64,000 nt of DNA from Ferruginibacter sp. (GTDB lineage: Bacteria; Bacteroidota; Bacteroidia; Chitinophagales; Chitinophagaceae), in contig JABFQZ010000032.1 of the NCBI GenBank assembly GCA_013141435.1, positions 1 through 64,000 of the forward strand, given 5' to 3'. Below are positions 9,345 through 14,473 of this stretch, one piece after another. A program made the position numbers and the translations under genes. A model generated the notes under the pieces. That model did no database searches. It worked only from the letters and a program-made list of their open reading frames with translations, and had not been told where the DNA came from. Numbering within the stretch: the stretch's first letter is position 1; the number at the start of each line of letters is the position of its first letter.

Positions 9345-10112
9345 TTACAGAGTTATTTCTACAAAAATTGGGCAATGGTCGCTATGTTTTACATCTGGCA
9401 AAATAGCTGAGGCTTTTAATTGTTTTGCTAATGGAGTGGTAACACAAATATAATCTATACGCCAGCCTTTATTGTTTAAACGCACACTCGGAAAGCGCTG
9501 ACTCCACCAACTGTAATGATGTGGTTCTTTGTTAAAAAATCTAAATGTATCTATCCATCCGCTTTGCAAAAATGATGTCATCCAATCTCTTTCTTCGGGC
9601 AAAAATCCCGATGATTTTTTGTTGCCTTTGGGGTCGTGAATATCTATTTCGTTGTGTGCAATATTATAATCGCCACAGAGGATTATTTTGGGATTGGTCT
9701 TTTTTAATTCATCTAAATATTGCTGCATTTCTGCCAACCATATATATTTATAAGCTTGTCTTTCATCGCCGCTTGTACCGCTGGGAAAATAAGCATTTAT
9801 TAATTTTATATCGCCAAATTGCAATTGTATTACTCGGCCTTCAAAATCGCTCATTTCATGGCCTGTGCCAAGTTTTACGGCATCGGGTTTTATTTTGGTA
9901 AATATAGCTACACTACTATACCCTTTTTTTTGTGCACTAAACCAATGGTGGTGAAATCCTAAATCTTCGAGCAACTTTACATCAATATCGGTAAATGCTG
10001 CTTTGGTTTCTTGTATACAAATTACATCGGCAGGGTTGGTAGCAAGCCAATCTATAAAACCCTTTTTAATGGCTGCTCTTATGCCATTGAGGTTGTAGGA
10101 AATGATACGCAT
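9345..10112 (-). CDS. xth: Exodeoxyribonuclease III
   Basis: MRIISYNLNGIRAAIKKGFIDWLA, CIQETKA, CGDYNIAHNEIDIHDPKGN, KHSDHCPI. Confidence 0.93.
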   Translation of the reverse strand: MRIISYNLNGIRAAIKKGFIDWLATNPADVICIQETKAAFTDIDVKLLEDLGFHHHWFSAQKKGYSSVAIFTKIKPDAVKLGTGHEMSDFEGRVIQLQFGDIKLINAYFPSGTSGDERQAYKYIWLAEMQQYLDELKKTNPKIILCGDYNIAHNEIDIHDPKGNKKSSGFLPEERDWMTSFLQSGWIDTFRFFNKEPHHYSWWSQRFPSVRLNNKGWRIDYICVTTPLAKQLKASAILPDVKHSDHCPIFVEITL

Positions 10113-10211
10113 AAATTATTTTTTGTAAATGTAATTACTGTGTTTGTAAAATTAAAACTACAACATATATTTTTGCTTCTATAAAACTTGAGTAAAGTAC
10201 TATTGTAGAAT

Positions 10212-10291
10212 TTAGCCCGGATAGGAATGGAAAGCCATTTATGCCAATTTTTATTGGTATAAATGCTTGCAATGTATAGCCGGAAACTGCT
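10212..10291 (+). ncRNA. Flavo-1-like structured RNA candidate
   Basis: agcccggataggaatggaaa...catttatgccaat/attggtataaatg hairpin...atagccggaaactgct; resembles the recurrent Bacteroidota intergenic motif AGCCC(n)GATAG(n)AG(n)GGAAA...GATAGC(n)GGAAA(n)AGCT as remembered. Confidence 0.5.
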
Positions 10292-10342: not shown

Positions 10343-13036
10343 CTAATCCATTATCGGTCTCAACCATCTCTCCATTTCATTTTTACTCAATTTTTTTCGG
10401 GCAGTGTAATCATCAAATTGCTCTTTATCTATTTTGCCTACTCCAAAATATTTGCTTTGTGGGTGTGCAAAGTACCAACCACATACCGATGATGCTGGGT
10501 ACATAGCCAATGATTCTGTTAAATGAATGCCTGTTGATTCTTCGCCGCCGAGTAGTTCAAATAATTTGTATTTTTCGGTATGGTCGGGGCAAGCAGGATA
10601 GCCTGGTGCTGGGCGTATGCCACTATACTCTTCTTTAATTAATTGTTCGTTTGTTAGCATTTCATTTTTTTCGTAACCCCAATAATCTGTTCTTGTTTTA
10701 TAATGCAATAATTCAGCAAAAGCTTCGGCAAGCCTATCGGCTAGGGCTTGTAGCATTATTTTATTATAGTCATCTAAGTTTTCTTCAAACTTTTTTATAT
10801 GTGTTTCTATACCTTGTATGGTTACGGAAAAGGCACCCATAAAATCGGCTGGAGATGGGCATATAAAATCTGCTAACGACACATTGGGCTGCCCTGCTGC
10901 TTTTTTGGCTTGTTGGCGTAAAAATTGCAACTCAATTTTTTCGTTTACCAATACGGTATCGGGTGCTGTTTTTTCGGCATTCCAAAAGCCTATAACGCCT
11001 TTGGCTTGTAGCCAATTTTCATCAATAATTTGTTTTAATAATTTTTGGGCATCGTTGTACAATTCAGTGGCTTGCTTGCCTACAACTTCGTCGGATAATA
11101 TTTGAGGAAAATTTCCGTGCAACTCCCATGCAATAAAAAAAGGTTTCCAATCTATATAAGTTGCAATTTCTGCCAACGAATAGTTTTCAAATATTTTTGT
11201 GCCAGTAAATGTGGGAGCCACTGGTTGGTAATTTTCCCAATTTATTTTTGTAGCATTTTTTTGAGCATCGGCAAATGGCAAAAATTGTTTTACCATTCTT
11301 TTGTTTTCAAAATCTGCTTTTAAGGTATTGTACTCCGTTTTTAAATTATTAAGAAACGCAATTTTATTTTCTTTATTGAGCAGGCTACCTGCTACAGTTA
11401 CGCTTCGGCTTGCATCTAACACATGTACTACGCCACACTCATACTCTGGCGCTATTTTTACAGCTGTGTGCATACGGCTTGTAGTAGCACCGCCTATTAG
11501 CAATGGTATATCCATTTGCAAACGTTTCATTTCTTTGCCAATATGTACCATTTCGTCAAGCGATGGTGTTATCAATCCACTCAAGCCAATAATATCTACA
11601 TTGTGCTTTTTAGCTTCTGCTAATATTTTATCTGCTGATACCATTACTCCCAAATCAATAATATCGTAACCATTACACCCTAGCACTACGCCTACAATAT
11701 TTTTTCCTATATCATGTACGTCGCCTTTTACAGTTGCCAATAATATTTTTGCAGCGCCACTCACTTCTTCATTTATTGTACCTGCTGCAATATGTGCATT
11801 TTTTCTGTCTAGCTTTTCTTGCTCAATAAATGGTGTTAAAACCGCTACAGCTTTTTTCATTACCCTTGCACTTTTTACCACCTGTGGCAAAAACATTTTT
11901 CCTGCTCCAAACAAATCACCCACTATGTTCATACCATCCATCAGCGGACCTTCTATCACTTCTAGCGGACGAGCATACGCAAGTCTAGCTTCTTCGGTAT
12001 CTGCATCTATATAATCTGTAATGCCATTTACTAGCGAATGTGCTAATCTTTTTTCTACAGGTTCATCTCTCCACTTTTCATCTTTTACAATTTCTTTTCC
12101 TTTGGCTTTTACTGTTTCGGCAAAATTAATTAGCGCTTCTGTAGCCTCATTGTTATCGTTGTTTTTATTGAGCAATACATTTTCACAAAGTTGCTTTAAG
12201 ATTGGCTCTATATCGTCGTAAATAACCAATTGACCTGCATTTACAATACCCATATCCATACCAGCGTTTATAGCATGGTACAAAAAAACACTGTGGATTG
12301 CCTCACGTACATGATCATTGCCTCTAAATGAAAACGATACATTACTTACACCACCACTCACTTTTGTAATTGGCATTAATTTTTTTATTTCTCTGGTAGC
12401 TTCTATAAAATCTACTGCATAATTATTGTGCTCTTCTATACCTGTGGCTACTGCAAAAATGTTGGGGTCAAAAATAATATCTTGTGGTGCATAGCCTACT
12501 TGCTCTGTTAATATTTTATATGCTCGGCAGCAAATTTCTATTTTACGTTCTTTAGTATCTGCCTGCCCTACTTCGTCGAACGCCATTACAATAACCGCAG
12601 CACCATAGCTTTTGCAAATATGTGCTTGCTCAATAAATTTGGCTTCGCCTTCTTTCATCGAAATTGAATTTACAACACACTTGCCTTGCACACATTTTAA
12701 GCCTGCTTCTATAATTTCAAACTTACTGCTATCAATCATTACAGGTATTTTAGCAATGTCTGGTTCGGCTTGTAATAAATTTAAAAAAGTTGTCATGGCT
12801 TCTACGCCTTCAAGCATGGCATCATCCATGTTTACATCAATTATTTGTGCGCCACCTTCTACTTGCTGGCGTGCTACTGATAATGCTTCTTCGTACAAAC
12901 CATCTTTTATAAGGCGTGCAAATTTTTTGCTACCTGTTACATTTGTACGTTCTCCAACGTTTACAAAATTAGTTTCGGGGCGTACAATTAGAGGCTCTAA
13001 ACCGCTTAGTCGTAAATATGGGTGTATTGTTTTCAT
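10343..13036 (-). CDS. metH: Methionine synthase, pterin-binding + cobalamin-binding + activation domains (C-terminal part of split MetH)
   Basis: RLSGLEPL...[42 protein letters not shown]12-binding motif; [15 protein letters not shown] activation domain. Confidence 0.95.
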
Positions 13037-13067: not shown

Positions 13068-13267
13068 TTTTAACACAAAGGGTACAAAGAAGTTTCACAA
13101 AGTAAACAAAGTAACTTTTATAAAGTGCCAAGTACAAGTCTTTTTACTCCATCTTTAAAAAGTGAAACATTAAAATTTATAAGTAATGCTAATAATATTT
13201 ATTTTCAATAATTCTATTGCCTGCTTTATGAGCTTAATGAAATCTCTTTGTACCCTTTGTGTTAAAA
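13068..13267. mobile_element. Relic element bounded by a perfect 23-bp inverted repeat
   Basis: TTTTAACACAAAGGGTACAAAGA (13068-13090) and exact reverse complement (13245-13267). Confidence 0.65.
13118..13190 (-). pseudogene. C-terminal fragment of a GxxExxY-like protein
   Basis: Minus-strand translation ALLINFNVSLFKDGVKRLVLGTL*; resembles GxxExxY C-termini (xGLLINFNVxLLKDGIKRxV); in-frame stop just upstream. Confidence 0.6.
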
Positions 13268-14269
13268 AATTTCAACCGTAGGTTGTATCCTTGGTTTAAA
13301 ATTTTTAACCGCATCTGCAATATGTTTTATATGATCGGGTGTAGTACCACAGCAACCACCAATAATATTTAGCCATCCATTAGCAGCCCATTCTTCAATG
13401 ATATGTGCTGTTTCGTGTGGTTGCTCATCGTACTCACCAAATGCATTTGGTAAGCCTGCATTGGGATAAGCCGATGTGTAACATGCCGCTATTGATGAAA
13501 GTTCTTCTACATGCGAACGCATTTCCTGCGCACCCAAAGCACAGTTTAATCCCACACTTATTGGATTGGCATGTGCTACCGAAGTGTAAAAGGCTTCCAA
13601 TGTTTGTCCGCTCAATGTACGCCCCGATGCATCTGTAATTGTACCAGAAATCATAATTGGAAGTTCAGCTTTATTTTCTTTTCTAAAATAATTTTTTGTT
13701 GCATAAATAGCTGCCTTTGCATTCAGCGTATCAAAAATAGTTTCTATCAAAATAATATCTACACCACCATTTACCAAGCCGCTAATTTGTTCGGTGTATG
13801 CTTCTGCTACTTCATCAAAAGTAACAGCTCTAAAACCAGGGTTGTTTACATCTGGTGAAAGCGAAAGTGTTTTATTTAATGGCCCAATAGCACCTGCTAC
13901 AAAGCGTGGCTTATCGGGGTTCATTGCTGTGTATTTATCCGCAGCTGCTCTTGCACATTTTGCTGAGGCTACATTTAATTCAAAAGCCAAATCTTGCATA
14001 TCATAATCTGCTTGAGCAATAGTAGTGCTGCTAAATGTATTTGTTTCTATAATGTCCGCTCCTGCTTCTAAATACAATTCGTGAATGCCTTGGATAATGG
14101 CAGGTTGGGTTATACTTAATAAATCATTGTTGCCTTTTACATCGGTATGCCAATCTTTAAACCGCTCGCCTCTGTAATCAGCTTCTTCTAATTTGTGGCG
14201 CTGTATCATTGTACCCATGGCACCATCTATAATAAGAATTTTTTCTTTTAATATTTCTCTAATATTCAT
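13262..14269 (-). CDS. metH: Homocysteine S-methyltransferase domain protein (N-terminal part of split MetH)
   Basis: [64 protein letters not shown]. Confidence 0.94.
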
Positions 14270-14368
14270 ATATCAATTTTCTATTTTAAAAAAATAGTTG
14301 TGTAAAATATGTGATTGAATATAGAAACGATTTGCAAATTTGCCCGAAGAATTTTTGGCAGAAAATGT

Positions 14369-14437
14369 ATTTCGTTTATTAGTTCAATCTTTTGCAAAAA
14401 GTACGAGGGTGAACAATAAACAAATCTTGCTTCGTAC
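14369..14437 (-). promoter_or_regulatory. Structured 5' leader of the metH operon (candidate riboregulator)
   Basis: GTACGA/TCGTAC arms (14401-14406, 14432-14437) and crossing long stem tgaacaataaacaaat (14410-14425) with atttcgtttattagttca (14369-14386). Confidence 0.45.
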
Positions 14438-14442
14438 AAATG

Positions 14443-14473
14443 CAAATGTACGTTAAGAAAAAATTGTTACAAA
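14443..14473 (-). promoter_or_regulatory. Bacteroidota-type promoter for metH operon
   Basis: Minus strand TTTG-N19-TACATTTG (consensus TTTG-N19-TAnnTTTG). Confidence 0.7.

Follow-up and report, generated by a model that had tools for sequence, protein, structure and literature searches.

The window, i.e., the whole stretch of 64,000 nucleotides of Ferruginibacter sp. DNA that was analyzed, contains a split methionine synthase gene (metH) on the minus strand, with recR located upstream of it. The leader preceding the N-terminal half of metH is more stably folded than its own shuffles (z −2.5) and comprises a promoter motif, two crossing helices and a stretch extending to the start codon. In the direction of transcription, the following features are found:

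14443-14473, minus strand: Bacteroidota-type promoter, composed of TTTG (14473-14470), a 19-nt spacer and TACATTTG (14450-14443)
14437-14374, minus strand: aptamer core, P1 crossing P2, upstream of metH
14432-14437, minus strand: P1 5' arm GUACGA, part of a covarying helix, at the predicted transcription start
14421-14426, minus strand: GAUUUG, same as the third-strand hexamer of SAM-II; the final G may also open the P2 5' strand
14411-14421, minus strand: P2 5' strand GUUUAUUGUUC, near-invariant, with compensatory changes in sister families
14401-14406, minus strand: P1 3' arm UCGUAC, part of the covarying helix
14386-14400, minus strand: variable linker, A-rich at its end, with a hairpin in many relatives
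14374-14385, minus strand: P2 3' strand GAAC-U-AAUAAAC with the bulged U14381
14317-14329, minus strand: candidate switching strand CGUUUCUAUAUUC, able to pair with the P2 3' strand or the start region; the match is weaker than in most relatives
14256-14268, minus strand: start-codon region (ATG 14269-14267), paired with 14327-14316 in the predicted fold
13262-14269, minus strand: N-terminal half of metH with the homocysteine S-methyltransferase domain (PF02574), the gene proposed to be under control
10343-13036, minus strand: C-terminal half of metH with the pterin-binding, B12-binding and activation domains (PF00809, PF02607, PF02310, PF02965)

Between the C-terminal half of metH and a nuclease-like ORF (9345-10112), a Flavo-1 RNA (RF01705, 64.1 bits) is located at 10210-10290 on the plus strand, i.e., the strand opposite metH.

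The promoter is composed exactly as the preliminary description of this DNA had proposed, and no sigma-70 promoter was found in the metH leader of the window. The motif TAnnTTTG, which we take to be the Bacteroidota −7 box, is present in 80 of 95 leaders, with 2.6 ± 1.5 occurrences expected from shuffled sequence; in nearly all box-bearing leaders it is followed by GGATTTG at a distance of 18-26 nt. From this placement of the box, the transcript is expected to begin at the P1 5' arm, which is the first arm of the knot.

A conserved pseudoknot upstream of metH

Two pairings had been claimed for the leader. GTACGA (14437-14432) is indeed complementary to TCGTAC (14406-14401), forming P1, and GTTTATTGTTC (14421-14411) is complementary to GAAC-T-AATAAAC (14385-14374), forming P2, albeit with one bulged U instead of the two bulges initially described. 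The two helices cross, as had been recognized, and constitute a conserved H-type pseudoknot. The preliminary description had considered either a pseudoknot or mutually exclusive folds; the former is correct for P1 and P2, and a mutually exclusive pairing exists in addition, further downstream.

Double changes are found at 9/9 P1 pairs in alignment A1 (78 sequences), for which the covariation score is 0.219, compared with 0.093 ± 0.007 for shuffles and at most 0.065 for slid controls. The P1 duplex has a mean energy of −10.9 kcal/mol in 64 distinct leaders versus −6.9 ± 0.3 kcal/mol with the arms swapped between leaders. P2, composed of seven pairs, the bulged U and four further pairs, is invariant in alignment A1; double changes appear in A2, a wider alignment of 65 sequences, from U-A to C-G in two sequences and from C-G to U-A in seven, these compensatory changes coming from sister families. 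In the first alignment, linker length ranges from 8 to 50 nt, with longer linkers in others, and the flanks are also freely variable. Many linkers contain hairpins, the shortest being devoid of them; the A-rich linker end has A at −3 in 89% and at −4 in 74% of 74 sequences. The additional hairpins UGCC/GGGCA and CUAUUUU/AAAAUAG are present in the window as described, and conservation was seen among the closest relatives.

A search with the N-terminal half of metH yielded 80 loci, mostly from Ferruginibacter and other Chitinophagaceae. The element, which can be written as GGATTTGTTTATTGTTC - variable linker - GAACTAATAAACG, is located upstream of metH in 78 of the 79 loci with readable leaders, with L055 being the exception; the contig of L079 is incomplete. 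Scanning whole genomes across the order revealed the element in 122 of the 135 genomes sampled from the family of the window (f1, presumably the Chitinophagaceae) and in seven genomes of two further families, f13 and f17. It is present as a single copy in the genome of the window, where the search for a second copy returned one weak chance match (E 0.73). A wider model found no member outside the family among 385 genomes sampled from the class, and the six weak matches of a phylum scan, read by eye, did not have the core ahead of metH. At L178 (G070:C251), the element (184-249) precedes a gene identified by eye as the C-terminal metH half and overlaps its start codon (AAUAAGAUG), so that the link to methionine synthase is kept. 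At L181 (G611:C3, approximately 178-264), a divergent copy occurs, whose third strand, GGAUUUUGGUUUAUUGUUC, is two bases longer than all others. In ten sampled genomes of the family, metH lacks the element, and no riboswitch recognized by Rfam is located nearby. Loci L188-L197, from the f1 genera g204, g214, g220, g221, g226, g232 and g235, have metH without the element and without SAM-I, and several of them show a TAnnTTTG-like box very near the ATG.

Relation to known SAM riboswitches

No Rfam model matched the leader. The SAM-II models RF00521 (SAM_alpha) and RF01726 (SAM-II long loops) remained without a match up to E 10 (E 5 in one search); SAM-I, cobalamin, SAH and SAM/SAH riboswitches were likewise without an Rfam match in the leader. 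For SAM-V (RF01826), the leader stays below the Rfam gathering threshold, and none of 148 genomes has a match above the cut-off. The lack of an S-box/SAM-I consensus had been noted correctly at the outset, and the suggested comparison with SAM, SAH, SAM-II and cobalamin models matched no known riboswitch; what had been missed is the likeness of the structure to the SAM-II/SAM-V pseudoknot.

SAM-II is an H-type pseudoknot; in its consensus, GAUUUG follows P1 directly, UUGCA precedes the 3' arm of P1, and the P2 3' strand contains UCGCUAAA or UGCUAAA. At the matching places the element, which is of the same topology, has GAUUUG, UUGUUC and GAACUAAU. Thirteen positions of SAM-II are reported to be completely conserved (PMC3764141), ten of which, namely, U10-U12, U20, U21, G22, C43, U44, A45 and A46, are kept in 65/65 rows. 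The third strand U10-U12, required for the triples U11.A45-U21 and U12.A46-U20, is thus present throughout at the sequence level, and a corresponding triplex would be formed in the element. The equivalent of the bulged U44 is present in 65/65 rows as well; by position, U14381 of the window corresponds to U44 of SAM-II and to U47 of SAM-V. In SAM-II, U44 contacts the adenine of SAM, and U11 and U21 face the sulfonium (PMC3764141). Two replacements are fixed in 65/65 rows: C23-G42 of SAM-II, a pair with a G8 triple, is U-A in the element, and A47 of SAM-II, which is A50 in SAM-V, is U, this place being occupied by U14378 in the window. A47 holds the amino-acid end of SAM (PMC3764141), as does A50 in SAM-V, where inosine at this position severely reduced SAM binding (PMC6061858).

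A rough model, which ignores the exact hexamer and the gene context, gives an AU-rich, single-bulge knot a 1.5% chance of at least 10/13 matches. As the bare match is only moderately unlikely, weight is placed on layout, hexamer and gene context. The element differs from SAM-II further in that only 3 nt separate the GAUUUG hexamer from AUUG and that P2 is continuously Watson-Crick-paired above the bulge. With SAM-V it shares the core, the four pairs between bulge and P1 and the A-rich strand before P2 (PMC6061858), as well as the occlusion of the start site expected in f17 genomes; where SAM-V has its P3 hairpin, hairpins are visible in many linkers of the element and absent in the shortest. 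It is unlike SAM-V in the U at A50, the shortened turn from the third strand to P2 and the long downstream platform of many leaders. The defining features of SAM-II and SAM-V were tested and not found in full, and the element was therefore assigned to neither class. The element is a real, family-wide, Rfam-negative pseudoknot of the SAM-II/SAM-V type in which the ligand pocket is altered, and it is probably cis-regulatory.

Canonical SAM riboswitches are encountered in front of metH elsewhere. In genus g35 of the same family (G115, G651, G677), the element is absent, and a canonical SAM-I (RF00162), whose four-way-junction fold is unrelated to it, takes its place directly upstream of metH. A canonical SAM-II precedes a gene identified by eye as metH at L110, which comes from a Bacteroidota genome of another class. 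SAM-I, which is absent from the leader and was not detected in the genome of the window, is present in 33/41 genomes of the family, which speaks against a simple SAM reading. Four such loci were read by eye: at three of them, a metB/metY-like gene lies on the same strand and side as the match, and at L171, with the match on the minus strand, such a gene is also on the minus strand. At L113 (G235:C10), tandem SAM-II-type aptamers occur (1501-1577 and 1617-1673), one RF00521-like and one RF01726-like, both under the gathering score.

Proposed control of metH and alternative explanations

The position of the pseudoknot relative to the start codon follows two designs. In f17 genomes (L173-L177), the P2 3' strand directly joins the metH ATG (AAACUAAUAAAC-AUG), so that formation of P2 must cover the start site; at L172, L180 and L185, about 8 to 12 nt remain between its end and the ATG. 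Start-site occlusion has been proposed for SAM-V. In the leader of the window, 103 nt extend from the aptamer to the ATG, and P2 is not positioned over the ribosome-binding site. Such long leaders have a downstream strand, CGUUUAnnAGUUC, with two possible pairing partners, namely, the P2 3' strand (score of 16.7 versus 12.5 ± 0.24 by chance) and the start region (−7.2 versus −6.5 ± 0.2 kcal/mol). Partition-function folds give an opening of the start region of 0.48 with the P2 3' strand free versus 0.43 with it locked; freeing this strand raises the opening in 50 and lowers it in 6 of 92 leaders (Wilcoxon p 5e-10), and the opening exceeds that obtained with a shuffled strand (p 5e-8), both p values being overstated because the leaders are related by descent. 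For the window, the computed change is very small (0.247 to 0.258), and in the minimum-energy fold, its start codon is base-paired. Many leaders (L002, L004, L014, L017, L027 and others) contain a second GGATTTG-like stretch that echoes the aptamer third strand and the P2 5' strand; it lies approximately 25-40 nt past the 3' strand of P2, immediately ahead of the switching strand CGTTTA.

From these features, a cis-acting riboswitch of the SAM-II/SAM-V type, which turns off translation of the split metH and probably senses SAM, is proposed with moderate confidence. The transcript would start at P1, and P1 and P2 would fold into the H-type pseudoknot. Binding of the ligand would lock the P2 3' strand, whereby metH translation would be shut when SAM is plentiful. 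In the sister families, the locked strand would lie at the ribosome-binding site and block it directly; in long leaders, including that of the window, locking would free the downstream strand, which would then pair with the start region. Under either design, translation is predicted to be OFF once the ligand is bound. The metabolite-type switch that had been suggested in front of the split metH is supported, and its ligand, originally a guess, would now be SAM or a close relative. In favor of this reading are the occurrence before metH across a family, the changes in P1 and P2 that preserve pairing, the SAM-II layout with its ten kept positions, the lower P2 and A-rich strand resembling SAM-V, SAM-II preceding metH in L110, SAM-I replacing the element in g35, the P2 3' strand next to the ATG in L173-L177 and the opening of the start region with that strand free; against it speak the U at A47/A50, the U-A at C23-G42, the fact that no Rfam SAM model scores and the very small computed change for the window.

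The same two fixed replacements, together with the inosine result at A50 of SAM-V (PMC6061858), favor the possible, albeit rather doubtful, explanation that the fold has been retained with a re-tooled pocket for a metabolite other than SAM, which would amount to a novel ligand specificity among riboswitches, reserved for the B12-dependent methionine synthase. Candidates are adenosyl or cationic metabolites of the methionine cycle, such as methylthioadenosine, SAH, decarboxylated SAM or a cobalamin form. In most of the family, SAM-I is already in use for other genes, and SAM-I variants with a changed ligand are known (PMC10853860); however, the sulfonium-facing U11/U21 and the adenine-binding U44 are all kept, and it is SAM-I that replaces the element before metH in g35. 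If the aptamer acted by attenuation of transcription, the downstream strand would pair with the 3' strand of P2 into a terminator-like hairpin, depending on the aptamer state. The above-chance alternative pairing, the U runs that follow in some Ferruginibacter-like leaders and the mostly transcriptional mode of canonical SAM-II (PMC6061858, PMC2258182) would agree with such a mechanism, which is nevertheless considered unlikely: no terminator-like site was found in the leader of the window, and the divergent families have P2 on the start codon and no downstream platform. Least probable is the absence of any ligand switch, with the inverted repeat GTTTATTGTTC / GAACTAATAAAC serving as a protein-binding RNA element or as a DNA operator. 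The almost invariant sequence of P2 is what would be expected of a protein site, but P1 covaries across P2, and the unpaired hexamer and the bulged U are also fixed and match a known aptamer. A DNA operator was rejected because of the widely varying spacing of its half-sites; in the first alignment alone, they lie 8 to 50 nt apart, and farther in others.

No riboswitch of this kind in Chitinophagaceae or before metH was found in the open-access literature, so that an earlier description elsewhere is possible. This riboswitch candidate, which is family-wide and recognized by none of the Rfam models, would control a central enzyme of a large bacterial family. Its pocket departs from those of SAM-II and SAM-V at the very base which holds the amino-acid end of SAM. 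If SAM is bound via a different contact, the element would show how such a pocket tolerates change; otherwise, it would sense something else.
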